The notes below the pieces were generated by a model, which was not told where the DNA came from, made no database searches, and worked only from the letters and a program-made list of their open reading frames with translations. Both the position numbers and the translations under genes were made by a program. Below, one piece after another: positions 21,176-43,151 of a DNA stretch of 43,151 nucleotides. The DNA lies in the IMG/VR virus record IMGVR_UViG_3300046683_000129, positions 1 through 43,151 of that record; one strand, given 5' to 3'. Every line of letters starts with the position of its first letter. Position 1 is the stretch's first letter. The stretch is from a virus.

Positions 21176-22717
21176 ATGGCTGGCAACGCTGGCACCTTTC
21201 GAGTTGTCAGGCCATATCAGCCCCCTGTTCGCATCGACCAGTCCGATGCCTCGCAAGACTCCACGCTCAAATACCCGCTCGGGCTTGTGCCGTGGCAGCG
21301 CACACCGTCCTCCAACTTCTGGGCTGGGCAACGCCGCCCGGTTATCGACCAGTCGACTCAGACTGTCCCCGATCTTGAACTAGAGCTGACTCACGCCGTT
21401 CTCGGGAACCGGCCCTGGCGGCGGGACACGGTCGAGACGTACTGGGAGCAACGCCGGTACACGATCGACGAGTCGTCTCCCGACCTCGAAGCGGAGCTGA
21501 CTCACCGTCAACTGGTCCAGCCCCTCCCCGCACGGCTGTATGCCACCGAATACTGGGCGCAGCGCCGCGCCATCATCGACCAGTCTGCGCAGTTCCCGCC
21601 AGACCTGGAGACAGAGCTAACCCACCCGCCGCTTGGCCTGAAGCCGTGGCAGCGTCCGTTCCTGTCTGGCTACATCACTCCTCAGCGTCGCTACACGATT
21701 GACGAGAGTTCGCCCGATCTCGAAGCCGAGCTGACCCACCCGAACCTCGCCAAGCCGTTCTCCCCACGGGCACGAGACCTCCAGTATTGGCTCCAGAGGC
21801 CCATCAAGGCCGACCAGTCGGTTCCCCCCGACCTGGAACTGGAACTGACCCATGCGGTCCTCGGGCTGCGCCAGTGGCTCCGGGCGACATCGACTGCCGT
21901 CTGGAATCAGCGCAGGCCGGTCATCGACCAGTCGGATCAGAACCCGCCTGATCTGGAACTGGAACTGACGCACCAGCCGCTCGGGCAGCGCCAGTGGCAG
22001 CGAAAGCCGTCCTCGAACACCTGGTATCAGCTCCACCCCCGCGCTGACCAGTCTGTCGCTGACCTCGAACTGGAGCTGACGCATTCGCCGCTCGGGCAGC
22101 GAATGCACTGGCAGCAGCGCAAGTCGTTCGCCTATTGGCTCCAGCGTATTGCGAAGGCTGACCAGTCCACTCCCCCCGCATTTGTCGCCCAAGGCTCGGA
22201 AATCTATGCCTGGGGCCAGTTCATGTGGGGTGGGGCTATCCCCGCCGCAGCCTTTGTGCTCGTTCTGGTGCCTCCGGTGGGCATCTTGCTGGATAATGAT
22301 GGTAAGAGCACGGTCACTCTCGACAATGAGGGTGGCACGAGCATCAATCTCGATCACGACGGTATTGCCGGTCTTTGGAAGGGTGGCGTAAGGGTGACAG
22401 ATTTCTGGATCAAGAGGAATGACACCCTCTCTCCCATCTCGGGCCAACTCACGGACGCGCTCGGGAATCACCCCAGTCTGGCCGGGGCAACTGTGCTCAT
22501 CAAAGCAAAGGACATGGCTGGAAACATCCTGTTCTCGTCCACGGCTACGGTCACTGACGCCACGAACTCCCTCATCTCTTACACCTTCACCGCGCCTCAA
22601 ACCGCTGTGGCGGTCGAAGGCCTGCTGGAGTTCCAGGTGACGTTCGCTGGAGGCGCCATTCAGACGTTCCCGAATGACGGGTTCATCGCTCTCCACATCT
22701 TGGAGGACGTGAGTTGA
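21176..22717 (+). CDS. Tandem-repeat tail protein with BppU-like C-terminus (513 aa)
   Basis: Residues about 55-330 are seven repeats of 37-41 residues with the pattern (I/A)D(Q/E)S-x(1-5)-PDLE-x-ELTH-x-x-L, then a basic/aromatic part ending (W/Y)-x-x-QRR; a partial copy stands at each end. Two repeat classes occur: IDQS with longer spacers and IDESSPDLEAELTH. Residues 330-400 hold hydrophobic strands and a triplet-like LDNDG / LDNEG / LDHDG run. Residues 405-513 (Thr-Asp-Phe-Trp-Ile-Lys-Arg-Asn-Asp to Phe-Pro-Asn-Asp-Gly-Phe-Ile) resemble the BppU N-terminal domain of baseplate proteins. The repeats are not recognised. Confidence 0.75.
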   Translation: MAGNAGTFRVVRPYQPPVRIDQSDASQDSTLKYPLGLVPWQRTPSSNFWAGQRRPVIDQSTQTVPDLELELTHAVLGNRPWRRDTVETYWEQRRYTIDESSPDLEAELTHRQLVQPLPARLYATEYWAQRRAIIDQSAQFPPDLETELTHPPLGLKPWQRPFLSGYITPQRRYTIDESSPDLEAELTHPNLAKPFSPRARDLQYWLQRPIKADQSVPPDLELELTHAVLGLRQWLRATSTAVWNQRRPVIDQSDQNPPDLELELTHQPLGQRQWQRKPSSNTWYQLHPRADQSVADLELELTHSPLGQRMHWQQRKSFAYWLQRIAKADQSTPPAFVAQGSEIYAWGQFMWGGAIPAAAFVLVLVPPVGILLDNDGKSTVTLDNEGGTSINLDHDGIAGLWKGGVRVTDFWIKRNDTLSPISGQLTDALGNHPSLAGATVLIKAKDMAGNILFSSTATVTDATNSLISYTFTAPQTAVAVEGLLEFQVTFAGGAIQTFPNDGFIALHILEDVS

Positions 22718-36488: not shown

Positions 36489-36670
36489 AGTGGGCCGGTG
36501 CTGCTGTCTGTCTGGTCGTGGCACCCGTGGTCTGGTGGGTGCGGATGGCTCAGATGGGTAAGCGGATGGCGGGTGAGTGGCCTGACGTGGAGGCTGCCCT
36601 GTTCGGGCTACCGATGGAAGTCGACAGCGGTGATGAGAGCGTTGCGGTCCACACCGTGGAGATGCTGTAG
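36485..36670 (+). CDS. Small membrane protein, last rightward gene (61 aa)
   Basis: GTG start overlapping the preceding stop. N-terminal membrane helix (about 4-20) with a Trp-Trp, then an acidic soluble tail. Its last 63 bases overlap the end of the leftward gene 36608-37084 on the other strand; no terminator is visible between the converging operons. Confidence 0.6.
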   Translation: MKWAGAAVCLVVAPVVWWVRMAQMGKRMAGEWPDVEAALFGLPMEVDSGDESVAVHTVEML

Positions 36671-37084
36671 CCACGAGCACCGCCAGGCCTCCAGGTCAGC
36701 CTGGTACCTGTCACCATCGAAGTCGCTGGTCTCGTAGTTGTAGTAGTTCTCCTGGTGCCAGCCGATCCACTCGCCATCGATGAGGAGAGCGAAGGGTGCC
36801 CAGGGCAGAGAGTCGTTCTGCTTCTCAGGCGTCCATGGTGACGGGGGTGCAGTGGCCTGGCGGTAGGTCAGTCGCTCCAGGTCGATGAACGACCTCGGGC
36901 ACGCTGACACCTCCTCACCTTCGGTAGTGAGGAGAGCTGCCACCTCCTGCCAGTAGTCCCACTTGGCCTGGGGGTTGTAGGGGTAGCCCTCCTCGTCCTT
37001 CTCGTCCAGGTAGGCGTTCTCATCGAACGGGGCCATCGCCTTCTCGACATCATCGCCCACCACGAGCACGAGCGCGTGAGTCAT
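36608..37084 (-). CDS. Hypothetical acidic protein, last leftward gene (158 aa)
   Basis: ATG 37084 overlaps the previous stop (ATGA). Acidic with Pro-Phe-Asp-Glu-Asn-Ala-Tyr and a Tyr-Asn-Pro-Gln-Ala-Lys-Trp-Asp-Tyr-Trp-Gln segment (about 38-50), a pattern I recognise from actinophage hypothetical proteins, and a Trp/Tyr-rich C-terminus. Function unknown. It ends 63 bases inside the converging rightward gene. Confidence 0.7.
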   Translation of the reverse strand: MTHALVLVVGDDVEKAMAPFDENAYLDEKDEEGYPYNPQAKWDYWQEVAALLTTEGEEVSACPRSFIDLERLTYRQATAPPSPWTPEKQNDSLPWAPFALLIDGEWIGWHQENYYNYETSDFDGDRYQADLEAWRCSWLQHLHGVDRNALITAVDFHR

Positions 37085-37263
37085 GCCGTCACCTCTGACA
37101 CAGCTCCGGGGTTGTGGACCATCGTGGGGAAGTGCGGATCGGTGCCGCAATGCCATGATGCACTGTCCTTCGGGTTAGTCGGATCGGCAAGCCACTTGAA
37201 ATGCAATCCGCAAGCGGCGAAATAGACCTGCCTCCCGCAGCGCTCACAAGTTCCTGTCTTCAT
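37081..37263 (-). CDS. Zinc-binding peptide (60 aa)
   Basis: Cys6-x-x-Cys9, Cys18, and a His38-Cys39...His44 group point to a zinc site. The start overlaps the previous gene's stop by four bases (ATGA), and the end overlaps the next start. The arrangement is not one of the standard ribbons. Confidence 0.65.
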   Translation of the reverse strand: MKTGTCERCGRQVYFAACGLHFKWLADPTNPKDSASWHCGTDPHFPTMVHNPGAVSEVTA

Positions 37264-37538
37264 GCCGTCACCTCCGAACCGAACGGAGCGAGCGTAGCGG
37301 CGAGCAGGGCATCGAAGTTCTCGCGGGGCAAGCGGCGAGCCTTGTCACTGTTCGGGAGCTGATTCAGATGCTTCCCGGTTATGGGACCCCACAGGTTCTC
37401 TGAGATGTACCAGCGGCCACAGTCGGCAAAGCCGACGATGGTGCGATAGGAGAATGCCAGGTCCACCTCACCGATGGTGACGATGGAGAAGTTTGCCTGA
37501 CCTGTCGGATGGTCAATCGTGACTTTCATGTTTCTCAT
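37260..37538 (-). CDS. Hypothetical protein (92 aa)
   Basis: ATG 37538 (ATGA overlap with the upstream gene) with AAGGACGAGG upstream; ATG 37529 is an alternative. Beta-rich N-terminus, a Cys-Gly-Arg-Trp-Tyr-Ile turn, and an Ala/Leu-rich C-terminal helix. No family recognised. Confidence 0.65.
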   Translation of the reverse strand: MRNMKVTIDHPTGQANFSIVTIGEVDLAFSYRTIVGFADCGRWYISENLWGPITGKHLNQLPNSDKARRLPRENFDALLAATLAPFGSEVTA

Positions 37539-37753
37539 GCCTCGTCCTTTCCGTCAGCGATCGCGAGCAGTTGCTCGGCCAACAGGCGGGCTCCTCGTGG
37601 TGAGAGGGTTATCTCACTGGAGCTGAACGCTTCTCCCTCGTCGTCTGCCTCAGTGACGCACAGAACGACCTTGCCGTTTGCCTCAGGAAGCAAGGCCTCT
37701 CGGACGGCTACAACGTAGCCCTCGCTGTCAGCGGCCATGAACTTGTCAGCCAT
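37535..37753 (-). CDS. Hypothetical acidic protein (72 aa)
   Basis: ATG 37753 with GAGAGGAGAGAG upstream. Short beta-meander (Val-Val-Ala-Val, Val-Val-Leu-Cys-Val, Glu-Ile-Thr-Leu-Ser) followed by an amphipathic helix (Ala-Arg-Leu-Leu-Ala-Glu-Gln-Leu-Leu). First gene of a four-gene group that begins at module A. Confidence 0.65.
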   Translation of the reverse strand: MADKFMAADSEGYVVAVREALLPEANGKVVLCVTEADDEGEAFSSSEITLSPRGARLLAEQLLAIADGKDEA

Positions 37754-37829
37754 GTCTCTCTCCTCTCGGTTGTCTAGGCGTACTGTGCGCTCTTCCGACT
37801 TTCCCCTGCCGGAAGAGCGACTACTGCTG
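37754..37829 (-). promoter_or_regulatory. Leftward-arm intergenic module A
   Basis: Contains GTTGTCTAGGCGTACTGTGC (37769-37788), identical over all 20 bases to 38081-38100, a 10-bp hairpin (37788-37819), and the ribosome site for 37753. The upstream gene's stop (37830-37832) is itself part of a CTAGGCG copy. No TTGACA box is seen here, so it may only contain the terminator and a downstream element. Confidence 0.7.
37788..37819 (-). terminator. 10-bp hairpin in module A
   Basis: CGCTCTTCCG (37788-37797) pairs perfectly with CGGAAGAGCG (37810-37819) around a 12-base loop. It follows the stop of 37830-38069 by about 10 bases on the minus strand. There is no T-run. Confidence 0.65.
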
Positions 37830-38069
37830 CTAGGCGTTCACTCTCGGCTCACCCTTCGGGCTCGTCTTTGCGTAGCTCAGCATCTTCACGATTCGTTGCT
37901 CTTGGCTCCGCGCATTGTCGGCCATGCCCCATCGGATCGAGTGGTCGATGCCAGGGTCGTTCATCTTTGCGGACTCTGTGATCCACTCCCTGAGAATGCA
38001 CCGGTAGATGCGAACCTCTCGGATTAGCTCTCGCTCCTCTTCGGTAATCTCTTCCTCGTCTGTGTCCAC
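37830..38069 (-). CDS. Hypothetical helical protein (79 aa)
   Basis: GTG start at 38069 after GAGGAGGAAG. Very acidic first 20 residues, then a helical, Arg/Met-rich region with two Trp. The stop TAG at 37832 overlaps the CTAGGCG element of module A. Single-gene unit between modules A and B. No family recognised. Confidence 0.65.
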   Translation of the reverse strand: MDTDEEEITEEERELIREVRIYRCILREWITESAKMNDPGIDHSIRWGMADNARSQEQRIVKMLSYAKTSPKGEPRVNA

Positions 38070-38099
38070 GCTTCCTCCTCGTTGTCTAGGCGTACTGTG

Positions 38100-38159
38100 C
38101 TCTCCACCGGCCCACTTGTCAATGTGACATACGTCACACGGGCTCGAGCCGGTGGAGAG
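38100..38159 (-). terminator. 12-bp hairpin with long loop in module B
   Basis: CTCTCCACCGGC (38100-38111) is perfectly complementary to GCCGGTGGAGAG (38148-38159). The 36-base loop holds the TTGACA box and the CRP-like palindrome. Termination of the upstream gene or a folded leader are both possible. Confidence 0.6.
38123..38138. promoter_or_regulatory. Perfect CRP/GlxR-type palindrome
   Basis: TGTGACATACGTCACA: both half sites TGTGA and TCACA match the CRP-family consensus TGTGA-N6-TCACA exactly, and the arms extend to six bases (TGTGAC/GTCACA). It abuts the TTGACA box of the leftward promoter. GlxR and actinobacterial Crp proteins use this consensus. Confidence 0.75.
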
Positions 38160-38169
38160 ACCAACCCGT

Positions 38170-38457
38170 CTAGGCGTTGTGTCCGTTACCGTTTCCGTTG
38201 GTGCTGTGATGCTCGTCCACCATGAAAGGCTCGAAACGGAAGATGAGACCATCCCCCGTCTTTGTCGCATGGGTGAGAGCCTTGCCCTTTCGCTTTGCTG
38301 CCTGGATGTAGCACTCAGACCGCATCGAGCTAACAGGGACAGTGAAGTCAACGCCCTTCACGACCTTCCAGGTTGAGCCATCGAGCCAGTCGTCCCAGGG
38401 GTAGTCGTGCTTATTCCTGGTACTCGTGAGCAGTGAGCTATCCACACGTTCAGCCAT
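38170..38457 (-). CDS. Hypothetical protein (95 aa)
   Basis: ATG 38457 overlaps the stop of the upstream gene. Sequence with Asp-Asp-Trp-Leu-Asp-Gly-Ser-Thr-Trp-Lys-Val, a basic helix (Ala-Ala-Lys-Arg-Lys-Gly-Lys-Ala) and a Gly-Asn-Gly-Asn-Gly tail. It could be a small nucleic-acid-binding protein from its basic middle. Stop overlaps the CTAGGCG element of module B. Confidence 0.65.
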   Translation of the reverse strand: MAERVDSSLLTSTRNKHDYPWDDWLDGSTWKVVKGVDFTVPVSSMRSECYIQAAKRKGKALTHATKTGDGLIFRFEPFMVDEHHSTNGNGNGHNA

Positions 38458-38680
38458 CTGTCTTGGCCTCTCTCTCTTGTCTTGTCTTGTGCATGTCTGA
38501 CGCCCTCAGCAGCCGCTCGGGAAGTACCGACCGGTAGCCTCGGCGCCCTCGCGGGTCCTTGTCGCCTCCGTAGAGGGTGATGGACCCGTCGTGCTCGCTG
38601 GGCTCGGCCCGCATGACCCGGTACCGCCCAGCCTCTCCCTTGATCCTTACCCACTCTCCCTCTTCTAAGACGAGGGTCAT
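38450..38680 (-). CDS. Hypothetical basic protein (76 aa)
   Basis: ATG 38680 overlaps the stop of the upstream gene (ATGA). First 35 residues look like a beta barrel (Glu-Gly-Glu-Trp-Val-Arg-Ile-Lys-Gly-Glu-Ala-Gly-Arg-Tyr-Arg-Val), similar in style to KOW/SH3-like domains; the rest is Arg-rich. Nucleic-acid or protein binding is possible. Not recognised as a named family. Confidence 0.65.
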   Translation of the reverse strand: MTLVLEEGEWVRIKGEAGRYRVMRAEPSEHDGSITLYGGDKDPRGRRGYRSVLPERLLRASDMHKTRQEREAKTDG

Positions 38681-38883
38681 GGCTTGATCGTTCCATGTAT
38701 CACGTTACCCGCCAGATCGGTGCCGCACACACCATTTCCCATCGCGTGACAATCCCAGCACTCGTCGTCCTCCTGGCAGGTCACCGGAGCCTTCTCGTGA
38801 TGCTGTGCGCCGGACACAAGGCCACTGACGGCCCCGGCGAGAATCGCCAGGGCTGCCAGGATGGCACGAAGTAGGGCGATCAT
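38677..38883 (-). CDS. Small secreted or membrane protein, Cys-rich (68 aa)
   Basis: Hydrophobic first 25 residues with a possible cleavage after Ser-Gly-Ala, then a 40-residue part with Cys36, Cys42, Cys45 and Cys53, enough for two disulfides or a metal site. Exported early proteins may modify the cell surface. No lipobox. The start overlaps the stop of the large upstream gene. Confidence 0.65.
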   Translation of the reverse strand: MIALLRAILAALAILAGAVSGLVSGAQHHEKAPVTCQEDDECWDCHAMGNGVCGTDLAGNVIHGTIKP

Positions 38884-39662
38884 CGGTCGATCCGATAGTC
38901 AGACTCGTTGCCGTACAGGCCGCCGCAGACCCAGTCAGAGAACGATCCCTGTCCCTGGTCGATGGTGACGTGCTCGGGGTCGTAGGGCACCGTGACAGTC
39001 GAGCCCAGCTCGGCACTCATGCCGCTACCGCTCCAACGGTCGAACACGAGCACGCTGGGATTCTCCACGGTGATCGTGGCGGGTCCCTGCCCCTGGAACC
39101 GATCATTGATCATCGCTTCCATGTCGGCCAGGAAGTAGAGGTAGACACCGCCACCGGTCTCGTGATTGAGTAGCACTGTCTCTAGGGATGCCTCGTCTCC
39201 CTCGTCGCCAAGGTTGAGCAAGGCACGGATCGACGCCTTAGCGTCAAGCACCTCGTCCTCGTCGGCAAACTCGATGCTCTCCACGTCGCCAAGGTAGAGC
39301 CTGACCCAGCGGGCCGGGGTCTGGCGGAGAAGCTGACCGAACGGGTCACTCTGGTCATTCTCTTGGAGAGCGTCGCGGATAGCGTCATAATCGTCAGGCG
39401 TCAGCCACTCAGCGTCGGCCTTCTCCACGTTGTATTCAATCCAGTAACCGATACTTTCCCATTGTGCCTCAGCTTGCCAGGTCCACAAGTCGTCAGGCTC
39501 GTCGCCAGTGTCCAGAGTGTGCTGCAACTGGTCGTCCCTCAACCGATCATCGTATTGAGCATCGACCAGCGTGACCGGATGCTTACGGATGTCTTCGATG
39601 TAGCGGGCCGCGATGTCTGCCGAAGTGAAAGGCAGGTCCAGGGCTCCGTCCGTCTCGTGCAT
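38880..39662 (-). CDS. Large acidic hypothetical protein (260 aa)
   Basis: ATG 39662 after GAGAGAGGAG. Strongly acidic with many Asp/Glu, several Trp and Tyr, and few basic residues. Its net charge is far below that of the structural proteins. Acidic early phage proteins include DNA mimics and anti-host inhibitors; no motif shows which. First gene of a four-gene group expressed from module D. Confidence 0.7.
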   Translation of the reverse strand: MHETDGALDLPFTSADIAARYIEDIRKHPVTLVDAQYDDRLRDDQLQHTLDTGDEPDDLWTWQAEAQWESIGYWIEYNVEKADAEWLTPDDYDAIRDALQENDQSDPFGQLLRQTPARWVRLYLGDVESIEFADEDEVLDAKASIRALLNLGDEGDEASLETVLLNHETGGGVYLYFLADMEAMINDRFQGQGPATITVENPSVLVFDRWSGSGMSAELGSTVTVPYDPEHVTIDQGQGSFSDWVCGGLYGNESDYRIDR

Positions 39663-39745
39663 GTGCTTTCTCCTCTCTCGGTAGTGTCTAGTCGTACTGT
39701 GCGCCCTTCTAGTCAGGATGTCAACTAGAAAGGCGACCAGTACCG
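39663..39745 (-). promoter_or_regulatory. Leftward-arm module D: TTGACA promoter
   Basis: TTGACA (39719-39724), 17 bp, CACAGT (39696-39701): the same pair at the same spacing as in module B, followed by a shared TCTAG-x-CGTACTGTGC block (39687-39702 on the plus strand). A hairpin at 39702-39735 covers the box. This probably drives 39662-36608 or its first part. Confidence 0.65.
39702..39735 (-). terminator. Hairpin in module D
   Basis: CGCCCTTCTAGT (39702-39713) and ACTAGAAAGGCG (39724-39735) pair with one C-A mismatch across a 10-base loop. It sits just downstream of the stop of 39746-39907 on the minus strand. Confidence 0.55.
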
Positions 39746-39907
39746 CTAGGCGTAGTGCCCGGTCTCCAGGTAGCGGGCCAGCTTGGCCGATTCCTTCCTC
39801 CGTTCGCTATGGGTGCCAGTGAGCGCTACCCCTTCCTTTGTGAAGCATGCCTCTCCTCGGGCCGCTTCACAACGCGGGCAGGATGCCAAGGTTTCGTAAG
39901 GGTCCAC
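39746..39907 (-). CDS. Zinc-finger DNA-binding peptide (53 aa)
   Basis: GTG start overlapping the previous stop by one base. Cys10-x2-Cys13-x7-Cys21-x11-His33-x2-Arg36 matches a small zinc domain seen in actinobacterial and actinophage proteins (C-P-x-C-x-A-x-x-G-x-x-C...H-x-x-R). A helix of Lys/Arg/Leu follows (Glu-Arg-Arg-Lys-Glu-Ser-Ala-Lys-Leu-Ala-Arg-Tyr). DNA binding is likely. Stop overlaps a CTAGGCG element. Confidence 0.7.
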   Translation of the reverse strand: MDPYETLASCPRCEAARGEACFTKEGVALTGTHSERRKESAKLARYLETGHYA

Positions 39908-40359
39908 TAGTCCTCCGTCTCGTCGTCGTCGTCGCTCAGGTTCTCGATGGCCTCTTCGAGCAGGGCCGTCGCCAGACGTTCGGCGATTCGGTACAGGCAG
40001 AGCACCGCCATTTGCTCCATGCCCTGGTAGTTGCCGCCGCCGCCTTGCATGCCTTCCAGGCCGTAGTCGTCCACTAGCTCGTCATATTCCTGGTAAGCGG
40101 CCAGGTCTAGGAACGTCTCCCAGATTCGCCGCGTATAGATCAGGTCGGCCGCGCTGTCCGCTATCTCGTGCGTCATGTCATAGACACGATCGGCACGCGT
40201 GCCAGAGAAGTCGTCGCCCATGTAGGAGATTGACTCTCTCACGCCGTCTTGCACGCGCTCTAGGAACGTCGCGCCAGGGCTCGTCAGACTGTCAGGGCTC
40301 GCACAGTCTGCCATGTTGGCAAGCTGGTAAGCGTTGTAGGTCTCGGTCTCGGTGTCCAT
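39907..40359 (-). CDS. Acidic helical hypothetical protein (150 aa)
   Basis: ATG 40359 with GAGAGGAG upstream. Mostly helical with a Gly-rich turn (Gly-Met-Gln-Gly-Gly-Gly-Gly-Asn) and a run of Asp/Glu at the end (Asp-Asp-Asp-Asp-Glu-Thr-Glu-Asp). Many Tyr. No family recognised. Expressed as a pair with the zinc peptide from module E. Confidence 0.65.
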   Translation of the reverse strand: MDTETETYNAYQLANMADCASPDSLTSPGATFLERVQDGVRESISYMGDDFSGTRADRVYDMTHEIADSAADLIYTRRIWETFLDLAAYQEYDELVDDYGLEGMQGGGGNYQGMEQMAVLCLYRIAERLATALLEEAIENLSDDDDETED

Positions 40360-40439
40360 TGTGTCTGTCTCCTCTCAGTGTCCTAGGTAGACACTAGGGG
40401 CACCCTCACCCTTCTAGTGAGGGTGCCCTAACTACCGGC
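40360..40439 (-). promoter_or_regulatory. Leftward-arm module E with operator-like repeat
   Basis: Holds a 12-bp hairpin (40398-40428) and, next to the ribosome site, an inverted repeat AGTGTC-N7-GACACT (40377-40395) with CCTAGGTA in its centre. No TTGACA box here. The gene upstream ends inside the CTAGGCG element at 40440-40446. Confidence 0.65.
40398..40428 (-). terminator. 12-bp perfect hairpin in module E
   Basis: GGGCACCCTCAC (40398-40409) and GTGAGGGTGCCC (40417-40428) pair fully around a 7-base loop. It is the strongest hairpin in the window, 12 bases after the stop of 40440-40595 on the minus strand. No T-run. Confidence 0.75.
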
Positions 40440-40595
40440 CTAGGCGTCCTGAATGTCACTGAATGAGATTTGCACCCATCCGATATTGCGAGCGAACACT
40501 AGCCCGCCATCGCGTGCCAGAATGAAGCGGGCCGATTTGGCATCTAGCGGCCAGTAGGTCCGATCCCTAGTCTCCACCTTGTACGGTCCTCGCAT
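40440..40595 (-). CDS. Hypothetical small protein (51 aa)
   Basis: ATG 40595 after GAGGAGGAGC, stop TAG inside the CTAGGCG element of module E. Beta-rich: Tyr-Lys-Val-Glu-Thr, Arg-Phe-Ile-Leu-Ala-Arg-Asp-Gly-Gly-Leu-Val-Phe-Ala-Arg, Trp-Val-Gln-Ile-Ser-Phe. Could be a small barrel. No family recognised; the ribosome site and module context support it. Confidence 0.65.
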   Translation of the reverse strand: MRGPYKVETRDRTYWPLDAKSARFILARDGGLVFARNIGWVQISFSDIQDA

Positions 40596-40654
40596 CGTGC
40601 TCCTCCTCGTTTCCTTCTAGTGATAGTCCTAAGCCTTCTCGTGCCACTTGTCAA
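40596..40654 (-). promoter_or_regulatory. Leftward-arm module F: TTGACA promoter
   Basis: TTGACA (40649-40654) overlaps the stop of 40651-40833. It is followed by AGTGG, as in module B (TTGACAAGTGG shared, 11 bases), and 17 bp later TAGGAC (40626-40631) as a weak -10. The segment CTTAGGACTA is shared with module H. No strong hairpin. Confidence 0.55.
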
Positions 40655-40833
40655 GCGTTATTTCTACGCTTCAGGAAGGTTTCTTGGTCTCGGTTGTCGG
40701 TCGTCTCGTCGTACTGGGCTATCCGAAGCTGACTTTCTCCGGTCTCCCAGTGCCACGGGTGAGACTCGCCGCGTACCCTTCTCAGTCTCCACTCGTCGTG
40801 CAGTCGTTCCTTCTCGTCTCTGTCGTCAGTCAT
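40651..40833 (-). CDS. Hypothetical charged protein (60 aa)
   Basis: ATG 40833 overlaps the stop of the upstream gene (ATGA). Highly charged: Asp/Glu/Arg/Lys make up about half of the residues, with Trp-Arg-Leu-Arg-Arg-Val and His-Pro-Trp-His-Trp. Helical. Stop TGA lies in the TTGACA box of module F. No family recognised. Confidence 0.6.
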   Translation of the reverse strand: MTDDRDEKERLHDEWRLRRVRGESHPWHWETGESQLRIAQYDETTDNRDQETFLKRRNNA

Positions 40834-41003
40834 CGGTTTAGCTCATTCCACACGAGAGCGACAGCGAACACTGTCAAGAGCACCATTAGCAGAATGCCGA
40901 AGAGTGCTGAAGCTGGGGCCGTCACGCGTCCGACCGATGGGCCGACGAGCACGATCGCTACCACGAGAGCAGCTAGGCGCCCCGGTGTCGCTAGGGGTCT
41001 CAT
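40830..41003 (-). CDS. Two-helix membrane protein (57 aa)
   Basis: ATG 41003 overlaps the stop of the upstream gene (ATGA). Two membrane helices (about 9-23 and 31-52) separated by a short Pro/Arg turn. It looks like a small holin or membrane antagonist, but it is in the early leftward arm, so an envelope-directed role is more likely. No charge-rich tail. Confidence 0.65.
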   Translation of the reverse strand: MRPLATPGRLAALVVAIVLVGPSVGRVTAPASALFGILLMVLLTVFAVALVWNELNR

Positions 41004-41419
41004 GCGGTCACCTTGCCTTCCAGTCGCTCAAGCATCCTGAACAGAACCTCAAGCACGCGAGACTCGGAAGGATCGCCATAGAGCGCCAGAAGATCGGCCA
41101 CAACGTCAACGTGCAGCCAGCAGCACCGCTCGCGACCCGTTCGGTAGTCCATGGTCGAATACTCAGAGTCGTCGTGGTAGTCCCATACCGGCGCGTCAGC
41201 GTGGTGCAAGTAGCGTGCAGCTTCTCGCAATGGCAGGACTTCCACACGGTAAGGCCAGTCCGTCTCCTCGGTATCTGGCACGTCTTGCCAGATCAGGGAC
41301 CCGTAGGGATTGTGAGGCTGTACCCATCCTGAATCGGTCTCGACTAGTTCGGCGTCGTCTCCATCTCCGATCCATTCCATCTCCGACGCCGTAGCGCGGA
41401 TTCTCACCTTAGGCTCCAT
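41000..41419 (-). CDS. Acidic hypothetical protein (139 aa)
   Basis: ATG 41419 after GGGAGGAGAAG. Starts MEPKVRIRAT, resembling MTEPTVHITAT of the next upstream gene, and both are preceded by the same operator-type repeat. Trp/Tyr/His-rich middle (Tyr-Leu-His-His-Ala-Asp-Ala-Pro-Val-Trp-Asp-Tyr) and a Leu-rich C-terminal helix. Function unknown. Confidence 0.65.
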   Translation of the reverse strand: MEPKVRIRATASEMEWIGDGDDAELVETDSGWVQPHNPYGSLIWQDVPDTEETDWPYRVEVLPLREAARYLHHADAPVWDYHDDSEYSTMDYRTGRERCCWLHVDVVADLLALYGDPSESRVLEVLFRMLERLEGKVTA

Positions 41420-41437
41420 TGTCTCTTCTCCTCCCAG

Positions 41438-41455
41438 GTTCCTAGGACTAGGAAC
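41438..41455. promoter_or_regulatory. Operator-like inverted repeat GTTCCTAG-N2-CTAGGAAC
   Basis: Two perfect 8-base arms with 2 bases between, ending 19 bases from the ATG of 41419. The same arms recur before the ATG of 42343 (42362-42379). Probably bound by a dimeric regulator that would block transcription or translation start. Confidence 0.7.
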
Positions 41456-41461
41456 ACAATC

Positions 41462-41488
41462 GGACCCTAGGAGCTAGCCCTAGGGTCC
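41462..41488 (-). terminator. 10-bp hairpin in module G
   Basis: GGACCCTAGG (41462-41471) and CCTAGGGTCC (41479-41488) pair perfectly around a 7-base loop, 9 bases after the stop of 41498-42343 on the minus strand. Confidence 0.65.
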
Positions 41489-41497
41489 TCAGTGCCA

Positions 41498-42343
41498 CTA
41501 GGCCAACGGTCCGCCAGTGATGCGAGTGATCACGTAGCCGTCTTCCCAGTAGACCGACACGCCGCTAGGGAGCATCCCTTCAATGTCGCGCACCGCATCG
41601 GCGAGATACTGGCACATGTCCTCGTCTTCGGCCCATCCGCCAGAGGGATTCGCTTCCCAGTATTCGCGTGCCGTGTCCAGTGCAGCAACGTAGTTGCGCT
41701 GCTCCCACGGTTGCATATCCCGCACCGTCTCGGCATCGATCAGGCTAGAAGCGTCATCGATGAACACTGCGCACAACTCGTCAGCAGTGCGGATCGCTGC
41801 ACCTTCACGCTGTACGAGCACTTCGGAATGGTCCTCACACGGACCATACTCTTCGGAGCACTCGCACTCTTCCAGGTCGTAGGCGTGGACTTCCAACTCT
41901 TCGGAATGCTCCAAGACCCATCGGCCCATCTCTCCGCTGAACAGGTCAGCATTCTCGCTCTTGCCGTAGGTCGGGACACCGTAGGTGATCGCGTCGACGT
42001 AGGCGCCCATGAATCCGAGAAGCGAGCGAGTGCCCTCGTCGGCGTCGGCGTCGGCGTAGCATCCCGATCGCAGGTCTGAAGCTTGACCGATGACGTACCC
42101 ATCGGACGCCGTAACGGTGTAGGTGAAGATGACGCGCCCGTCATCGGTGCGCACATCGCCAATCTCGCGGCCGTCCGCGTCTCTCAGCGTTCCAGTCGCT
42201 ACCGAAACGGTAGACCCGTCCTCGAACTCAAGCACTCTCACACTTGCCATGTCCTCGTCTCCTCCACGCGTGAAGGTCCACGCGTCATGATCTGGATTAC
42301 TGTCACGCGGCGTGGCAGTGATATGAACAGTAGGTTCTGTCAT
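41498..42343 (-). CDS. Acidic hypothetical protein (281 aa)
   Basis: ATG 42343 with GAGGGGAGA upstream. Very acidic, with a Glu-Cys-Glu-Cys-Ser-Glu-Glu-Tyr-Gly-Pro-Cys-Glu-Asp-His cluster (about 162-176) that may bind metal. N-terminus resembles that of 41000-41419. Second half carries a Trp-Glu-Gln-Arg-Asn-Tyr helix and ends Gly-Pro-Leu-Ala. The stop lies in a CTAG element. No family recognised. Confidence 0.7.
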   Translation of the reverse strand: MTEPTVHITATPRDSNPDHDAWTFTRGGDEDMASVRVLEFEDGSTVSVATGTLRDADGREIGDVRTDDGRVIFTYTVTASDGYVIGQASDLRSGCYADADADEGTRSLLGFMGAYVDAITYGVPTYGKSENADLFSGEMGRWVLEHSEELEVHAYDLEECECSEEYGPCEDHSEVLVQREGAAIRTADELCAVFIDDASSLIDAETVRDMQPWEQRNYVAALDTAREYWEANPSGGWAEDEDMCQYLADAVRDIEGMLPSGVSVYWEDGYVITRITGGPLA

Positions 42344-42426
42344 TGCGTTGTCTCCCCTCAGGTTCCTAGGGCTAGGAACACTGTGCAGCCTAGGACCGTA
42401 GTCCTAAGCTGACCAGTGCCACTAGA
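42344..42426 (-). promoter_or_regulatory. Leftward-arm module H with operator
   Basis: Holds the inverted repeat 42362-42379, an ACTGTGC block (as in modules A, B and D) and a short hairpin TAGGAC-CGTA-GTCCTA (42391-42406). The upstream stop is at 42427. Its order on the minus strand is stop, CTAGTGGCACTGG, hairpin, block, operator, ribosome site, ATG. Confidence 0.65.
42362..42379. promoter_or_regulatory. Operator-like inverted repeat, second copy
   Basis: GTTCCTAGGGCTAGGAAC. Arms are identical to those at 41438-41455, with a different 2-base centre (GG instead of GA). It lies 19 bases from the ATG of 42343, the same distance as in module G. Confidence 0.7.
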
Positions 42427-42735
42427 TCAATCGTTGAAGAATCGCCCGGAAGGTTCAGGGCTGGCACCCATCGCCCAGTCGTCAGCGAACTGGATACCGT
42501 GCCGCTCAGCCCGAAGCAGCCATGACTCACTGGCGAACTTGATAGCTGAGTCATTGAGCCACTTGGCCGCGGACTCAAGAGCCGACATGGCGGGCCGCGT
42601 CTCGTCATGGACGACGTAGTCGTATTGAGCATCGACGCAGCCAAGCGTCTCGGCTTCAAGAATCAAGCTCTGCGCCGCGAGAACGTGCTGTGCCGCTTCA
42701 GTGAGAAGGCTAGAAGTGGTGCTCTGATCGCTCAT
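42427..42735 (-). CDS. Hypothetical protein, first leftward gene (102 aa)
   Basis: ATG 42735 after CCGGAGGAGAT; longer in-frame starts upstream lie in the promoter and are not used. Helical N-terminal half (Ser-Leu-Leu-Thr-Glu-Ala-Ala-Gln-His-Val-Leu-Ala-Ala), a Cys and Tyr in the middle, then Trp-rich C-terminal part. It is first behind the promoter at the right end, so probably among the first proteins made. No family recognised. Confidence 0.7.
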   Translation of the reverse strand: MSDQSTTSSLLTEAAQHVLAAQSLILEAETLGCVDAQYDYVVHDETRPAMSALESAAKWLNDSAIKFASESWLLRAERHGIQFADDWAMGASPEPSGRFFND

Positions 42736-43025
42736 GGTATCTCCTCCGGTCGGATCGATGGTGCGATCATCCGCCAAGCCGACCGATCTGTCAATGGGTC
42801 CTGAGCAGCCAATACGCAGATTATTACTCACAGTCCTCGCTTGCTTAATCCAGTCGAGAGGGTGAGACCACCCTGCCACGCTCCAAGGTCGAGAGCACCC
42901 ATCTCCGCCGTAGCTCGTGGACCTTAGAGTCACCCTAAGTTTCTGTTGAAAGTGGGCTGTGAGCTGGCCGTTTCGTGGTGGCCGACGCCCTCGGATGGCA
43001 CCCCCCGGGGGGAGGGGGAGGGGGC
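42736..43025. other. Right-end regulatory stretch without a gene
   Basis: Between the first leftward gene and the terminal repeat no gene is supported. It contains the promoter at 42766-42794, an AT-richer patch near 42819-42832, a GAGGGTGAGACCACCCT imperfect hairpin near 42858-42874 (AGGGTG/CACCCT), and a block of C6 then G runs (43001-43032). Confidence 0.6.
42766..42794 (-). promoter_or_regulatory. Leftward promoter at the right end
   Basis: TTGACA (minus strand, 42789-42794) and GATGAT (42766-42771) are 17 bp apart. GATGAT matches TATAAT at 4 of 6. The start would lie near 42759, 24 bases before the ATG at 42735. This is the best -35/-10 pair in the window and likely opens the leftward arm. 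Confidence 0.7.
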
Positions 43026-43032
43026 GGGGGGG
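43001..43032. other. C6-G6 palindrome and four G runs
   Basis: CCCCCC-GGGGGG at 43001-43012, then runs of 5, 5 and 7 G separated by single bases. Four G runs with one-base loops are an ideal quadruplex motif. The same place at the left end reads as a longer G run with one T, so this tract may be misread by sequencing. Confidence 0.6.
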
Positions 43033-43151
43033 ACACCCAAAGTTCGCCCGCCCGCCGTACCTTTGCTATTGGGTCGCGGGAAATCTCGCAGATTTAAACG
43101 GCCTGGTCTCGGGAAATCTGAGTTGTGCAAATGCGCTCGAAGGGATGTAAG
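43026..43151. repeat. Right copy of 126-bp terminal direct repeat
   Basis: Identical to bases 12-137. It closes the contig on itself, so the leftward genes at 583-1679 and those at 36608-42735 point the same way around a circle, separated only by this end region. The internal iterons lie at 43077-43086 and 43110-43119, and the inverted repeat at 43081-43095. Confidence 0.95.

Follow-up and report, generated by a model that had tools for sequence, protein, structure and literature searches.

For more than 10 years, intergenic repeats in the early arms of actinophages have gone under the names of start-associated sequences or conserved repeats, with no known function. The closest published parallel to the elements described here is found in cluster M, whose phages Rey and Estes carry repeats CR3 and CR4 with upstream stem-loops (PMC7953290), rather than in the start-associated sequences (SAS) of cluster K or the stoperators of cluster A. 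In the cluster K phages TM4 and Adephagia, SAS and ESAS comprise a start-adjacent block that includes the Shine-Dalgarno sequence, with upstream inverted repeats, in the non-structural arm (PMC3203893, PMC11373665). Outside the actinophages, R1.1, a 60-nt RNA from the T7 early region, has an internal loop that is asymmetric (PMC6121014). Here we compare with these systems a series of seven intergenic modules (A, B, D, E, F, G, and H) in the leftward arm of IMG/VR virus record IMGVR_UViG_3300046683_000129, analyzed over its whole length of 43,151 bases (the window; 62% G+C).

The reading that we favor, with a probability of just over one half, is that six of the modules are T7-type RNase III processing sites that cut one leftward early transcript. 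A single transcript would start near 42766-42794, and each of these six modules would fold within it into an interrupted hairpin that has the preceding gene's stop codon in or beside its base. Host RNase III, the presumed cutter, would cleave at or near the internal loop to give mRNAs of single genes or small gene groups. Each fragment would keep a protective 3′ stem, with a presumed effect on mRNA stability, and the next gene would gain a short leader carrying its Shine-Dalgarno sequence, as happens in T7 where RNase III acts on the early region. Weak promoters may additionally be present in B, D, and F. RNase III of Streptomyces is active on the rpsO-pnp read-through transcript as well as on stem-loops in the rnc transcript that encodes it (cited in PMC12096830).

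Six hairpins closed by CTAG

A preliminary description of the sequence had placed the modules correctly and had identified the blocks that they share; the modules are real and recurrent, are confined to the arm, and are each flanked by a stop codon on one side and the following start codon on the other. Six of the seven fold on the minus strand as RNA hairpins closed by CTAG...CTAG, module F being the exception (Table 1). The hairpins are 54 to 62 nt long, apart from the 88-nt hairpin of B, and share a nearly invariant geometry consisting of a 4- to 5-bp base, a small mismatch, a lower stem, an internal loop of 2x2 to 3x4, and an upper stem of 11 to 15 bp. The internal loop is GU/CA in A, B, D, and H, and the second CTAG of each hairpin lies 16 to 28 nt ahead of the next start codon. 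The original count of five strong hairpins of 10 to 12 bp should have been six: the helix of B reaches 15 bp and encloses a large loop, and F alone lacks a hairpin. That description also missed the continuation of the stems to the closing CTAG/CTAG.

The TAG stop codon of the upstream gene lies inside the 5′ CTAG in five hairpins, and in H a TGA stop codon lies 1 base before the CTAG. TAG stops end five of the six genes directly upstream of hairpin modules but are otherwise rare, ending only 3 of the 57 rightward genes (p = 5e-5 by the Fisher test). CTAG is likewise concentrated at the modules, with 23 of its 64 copies falling within 1.4% of the sequence. Minimum free energy z scores range from −2.4 to −5.0 for the hairpin modules and reach +1.6 for F. 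When the genome was scanned in 60-nt windows, E, H, B, and D were its four lowest-z structured minus-strand stretches and G was the sixth. The genome has no comparable series elsewhere, and its other same-strand gaps of 40 to 260 nt lack hairpins of this kind.

Next to the Shine-Dalgarno sequence, modules E, G, and H have a further dyad that takes in part of the main hairpin's 3′ arm. The two folds are therefore mutually exclusive, and cutting in these modules could permit a new 5′ hairpin to form. In module F, the TGA stop codon of the upstream gene overlaps TTGACA.

The modules also share primary sequence. A and B have the same block GCACAGTACGCCTAGACAAC (minus strand), B and F share TTGACAAGTGG, and AGTGGCAC is common to F, G, and H. 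Exact copies of CACAGTACGMCTAGACA are present in A, B, and D, and one further site matches it with 3 mismatches, against a shuffle expectation of 0.11 sites. The longest word common to two modules is 20 nt; in 300 shuffled sets, the maximum averaged 8.5 and never exceeded 14. The palindrome GTTCCTAGYCCTAGGAAC is the same in G and H except at its center.

RNA structure versus DNA operators

A DNA operator, as proposed in the preliminary description, would be expected to keep its sequence and to show no strand preference. MAFFT aligned the six hairpin modules badly owing to differences in loop length, and pairing was tested by a swap matrix in Python. Each upper stem matched its own partner at 10 of 10 positions and the partners of other modules mostly at 3 to 6 of 10, rising to 9 among the related A, B, and D; such a pattern amounts to covariation among paralogous modules. 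In all six, the transcribed strand folded more stably than its complement. The same held for 19 of the 21 cluster M gaps, where the gain averaged 8.7 kcal/mol. Since the stems covary and the transcribed strand is favored, the modules are likely to act as RNA and not as DNA operators.

The operator proposal therefore fared poorly: the upper stems vary freely with pairing kept, and we consider it very improbable that the modules are stoperator-like binding sites for a repressor. The shared blocks and the palindrome of G and H would suit such sites, but that palindrome is present in two modules only and once across all IMG/VR contigs, in an unrelated contig that has a long frame resembling a T7-type RNA polymerase and where the match is likely due to chance. 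The sequence GATGAGTGTCAAG, which we take to be the L5 stoperator consensus, a 13-bp asymmetric repressor site, had 0 sites in the window at up to 2 mismatches.

Likeness to T7 sites and competing explanations

Six T7 sites, at what we take to be their positions, were folded from short segments, and a 20-kb T7 stretch was scanned; the early sites are R0.3, R0.5, R1, R1.1, and R1.3. Written as stems and internal loops, T7 R1 has the layout 4-(1x1)-5-(2x3)-9, and the corresponding layouts are 4-(1x1)-7-(2x2)-11 in H, 4-(1x1)-5-(3x4)-11 in G, and 4-(2x2)-6-(2x2)-13 in D. The sense strand was the stronger at all six T7 sites folded, as in the window modules, and the R0.5 hairpin likewise starts at a stop codon (TGA pairs with TCA). 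The arm also resembles the T7 early region in its small acidic genes, its Ocr-fold protein, the position of the hairpins in the gaps between genes, and the lack of a role for poly-U. T7-type sites are interrupted intergenic hairpins on the transcript strand with an upper stem of about 9 to 13 bp, an internal loop, and a lower stem, a description that D, G, and H fit well and A and E less well, while B is larger. Unlike the T7 sites, with which they have no common sequence, the modules have mostly symmetric 2x2 loops and longer, CTAG-closed stems.

A strict layout descriptor matched H and G alone in the window and R1 alone in the 20-kb stretch of T7. It also matched the hairpin that follows the OCR-like gene in the Rhodococcus phage ChewyVIII and in contig G033, and it had zero matches in 10 shuffled genomes. 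The interrupted-hairpin layout and these matches lead us to favor the cutting of a single transcript by host RNase III. Together with the T7 likeness, stop-anchored and covarying hairpins on the transcribed strand make mRNA segmentation a directly testable claim.

Several observations weigh against RNase III processing. The upper-stem sequence shared by the T7 sites, AAGGTC...GGCCTT, is absent from the modules. The descriptor was written once the modules were known, so that it is independent for T7 and ChewyVIII only, and it also matched once in Estes, outside the gaps examined. In A, the 3′ strand of the lower stem (CACAGTAC...) is conserved despite poor pairing (7 of 12 positions), so that this block has some sequence-specific role that folding leaves unexplained, and CACAGTACGMCTAGACA is conserved beyond the needs of pairing, even in A. 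Finally, B and D both have TTGACA at a distance of exactly 17 nt from CACAGT, an arrangement unlikely to arise by chance, and promoters in B, D, and F, as judged from these motifs, are likely enough to be retained.

Conservation of the GU/CA loop and of the CACAGTAC strand in A, B, D, and H would be accounted for if a phage or host protein bound both and, with no cutting involved, controlled translation or decay for individual genes, and the alternative dyads that overlap the hairpin arm in E, G, and H also fit this idea. We nonetheless regard it as unlikely: there was no candidate RNA-binding gene in the families scanned, and the hairpins change the accessibility of the Shine-Dalgarno sequence little.

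The main rival, which we hold to be possible but doubtful, is that the hairpins are Rho-independent terminators lacking poly-U and that a phage-type promoter restarts transcription in each module, in line with the separately controlled cassettes of the preliminary description. The motif spacing in B and D and the conservation of CACAGTACGMCTAGACA would both fit this scheme, as would TTGACA-17-TAGGAC in F and the concentration of 3 of the genome's 9 minus-strand copies of TTGACA in the ~600 nt of the modules. G, alone among the modules, is weakly terminator-like. There is also a precedent in the early region of the actinophage phiC31, whose terminators are reported to be intergenic hairpins without poly-U (cited in PMC8355165). 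Restart is weakened, however, by the lack of any promoter-like sequence or −35-like hexamer in A, E, G, and H. A sigma70-type −35 element is found only in B, D, and F, where the −10 element that follows after 17 nt is weak (3 of 6 matches), and in B and D the TTGACA lies within the hairpin. Separate control of every cassette would require a promoter in every module, and the promoter/operator picture of the preliminary description is partly supported. As for termination, no poly-U tract follows A, B, D, E, or H (T accounts for 1 to 4 of the 8 nt after the upper stem), and a terminator would have no need for a fixed internal loop or for a lower stem that is interrupted and anchored at the stop codon.

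The candidate early promoter at 42766-42794, upstream of the first arm gene, is the only full sigma70 match in the leftward direction; shuffles expect 1.4 matches in the region, so that alone it is no evidence of function. G and H come first after this match and have no promoter-like sequence, and they could therefore hardly be full terminators.

Elements in the corresponding gaps of other phages

The cluster M arms resemble that of the window in being the rightmost leftward arm and in having one stem-loop per gap, followed by a conserved start-associated block. The cluster M stem-loops often begin at the stop codon, CTAG...CTAG is present in three Rey gaps and two Estes gaps, and one gene is homologous to a window gene. 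They differ in having upper stems of 14 to 16 bp with A/G mismatches. The start block of Rey, CACACGGAGAAGGGA, had 0 sites in the window at up to 3 mismatches, versus 11 at up to 2 mismatches in the 8.9-kb Rey arm. With cluster K the window has in common the start-adjacent block, the Shine-Dalgarno sequence, the upstream inverted repeats, and the non-structural arm. However, the ESAS repeats do not support RNA pairing (PMC3203893), whereas the window modules do, and the SAS sequence GGGATAGGAGCCC, which in cluster K lies a few nt from start codons, had 0 window sites at up to 2 mismatches. The likeness to mycobacteriophage start-associated and stoperator sequences drawn at the outset was apt as to position, but neither the cluster K nor the cluster A consensus is present.

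CTAG-closed hairpins at stop codons were also found in Rey, Estes, and ChewyVIII and once in the podovirus ctEqG8. Over all loci tested, 30 of 673 gaps had stop-anchored hairpins; the two cluster M arms account for 11 of these and the window for 4. Because some loci overlap within the same genome, the counts lack independence. They come from the stricter of two tests, an analysis of stop anchoring by the outermost domain being confounded by upstream coding sequence. Long hairpins also begin at, or no more than two bases from, the stop codon of the capsid gene, just after that gene, in several capsid relatives (L013, L028, L039, and L077).

The window blocks were found in no other phage searched, and the conserved block had no match in IMG/VR. 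Conservation of the blocks in related phages, on which the preliminary description had staked its case, is thus lacking in sequence, although the architecture does recur. Close relatives were found neither by terminase or the 281-aa protein in IMG/VR nor by DNA in phages and plasmids, and the Ocr family had no match in genome contigs. The nearest relative by capsid (G001; 47%) has neither the OCR-like gene nor the hairpin series. In an unrelated contig, a CTAGGA-rich inverted repeat array (L117:286-352) precedes a long frame and a gene that probably encodes a T7-type RNA polymerase.

Five Streptomyces phages with the same OCR-like gene as the window (Loofah, Paedore, Yosif, Joe, and Aaronocolus) have other structured RNAs in their early-arm gaps. 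Loofah and Paedore each have 11 type II hammerheads, mostly one per gap and including one just upstream of the OCR-like gene; we found no papers on these hammerheads in the literature. Hammerheads flanking an anti-restriction gene (ardA) were noted by Perreault et al. (PMC3088659). The gaps of Yosif, Joe, and Aaronocolus contain 26 tRNA-like minihelices of 40 nt, every one on the coding strand, with covarying stems. Each consists of a 5-bp acceptor-like stem, an 11-nt linker (e.g., ACCGGCAGACA), a 6-bp T-stem, and the loop TTCGAGT, followed by AC. ARAGORN and Rfam miss these minihelices.

The hammerheads in the corresponding arm of Loofah and Paedore raise the idea that the modules are themselves self-cleaving ribozymes of an unknown class. 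This seems to us exceedingly improbable, as the Rfam covariance models gave no ribozyme match at the gathering score and the modules have no conserved unpaired core except the 2x2 loops. A match of module D to an Rfam microRNA was far under the gathering score and was rejected as mere hairpin resemblance.

Since the gap elements all are or resemble RNA-cutting elements, cutting is favored as their common function. We tentatively suggest, while thinking it somewhat more apt to be wrong than right, a general actinophage strategy in which nearly every early-arm gap holds an RNA-cutting element and the cutter differs by lineage: RNase III-type hairpins in the window, cluster M, and ChewyVIII; type II hammerheads in Loofah and Paedore; and, in Yosif, Joe, and Aaronocolus, minihelices that RNase P may cut. 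The presence of unrelated cutting elements in corresponding gaps of Streptomyces phages suggests convergent evolution of one expression strategy.

Turning to the window itself, its leftward arm (36608-42735, minus strand) contains ~17 small genes, many of them encoding very acidic proteins (net charge −9 to −42). The OCR-like gene (Table 1) has homologs among the OCR-like genes of both Rhodococcus and Streptomyces phages. The best four structure matches of an AlphaFold model of its product (mean pLDDT 74) are all Ocr (Z, 8.1 to 8.9; next, 6.0). As modeled, the window encodes an Ocr-fold protein; the Z scores alone are weak for a helical model, and homology and acidity are concordant with the assignment.

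Table 1. Hairpin modules and other features of the leftward arm
Feature	Coordinates	Strand	Description
Module A hairpin	37774..37833	−	60 nt; 5′ CTAG includes TAG stop of gene 37830-38069; weakest lower stem
Module B hairpin	38086..38173	−	88 nt; 15-bp helix; large loop containing TGTGACGTATGTCACA; TTGACA 17 nt before CACAGT
Module D hairpin	39688..39749	−	62 nt; 4 bp, 2x2, 6 bp, 2x2 (GU/CA), 13 bp; apical TTGACA 17 nt before CACAGT
Module E hairpin	40383..40443	−	61 nt; 13-bp upper stem; just upstream of OCR-like gene
Module F, no hairpin	40596..40665	−	Promoter-like TTGACA-N17-TAGGAC; strong Shine-Dalgarno sequence
Module G hairpin	41448..41501	−	54 nt; 4 bp, 1x1, 5 bp, 3x4, 11 bp; then dyad GTTCCTAGTCCTAGGAAC overlapping 3′ arm
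Module H hairpin	42372..42425	−	54 nt; 4 bp, 1x1, 7 bp, 2x2 (GU/CA), 11 bp
Candidate early leftward promoter	42766..42794	−	TTGACA, 17 nt, GATGAT; upstream of first arm gene; 10/12 consensus positions
OCR-like antirestriction protein	39907..40359	−	150 aa; net charge −27; phrog_4239
Acidic protein	41498..42343	−	281 aa; net charge −42; partial homology to Mycobacterium phage Rey gene 172
Very acidic protein	38880..39662	−	260 aa; net charge −40; no family assigned

Rey gene 172, the partial homolog of the 281-aa gene, sits in the hairpin-rich arm of Rey. The true start of the 281-aa gene may be at 42250, where GGAGGAG precedes an ATG, and the stretch ahead of this alternative start (42250-42343) contains a 12-bp inverted repeat (42296-42322).

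Elsewhere in the window, the capsid is ~30% identical to the capsids of Arthrobacter, Microbacterium, and Cellulosimicrobium phages. An end repeat of ~137 bp (1-137 and 43015-43151, 99% identical) indicates that the record is probably circular or circularly permuted. A noncoding stretch near the left end (~340-385) has a strong interrupted hairpin with CTAG, possibly the terminator of the left-end leftward genes. Seven 43-nt repeats at a spacing of 111 to 120 nt (21369-22101), inside the long frame 21176-22717, are probably protein repeats of a structural gene.

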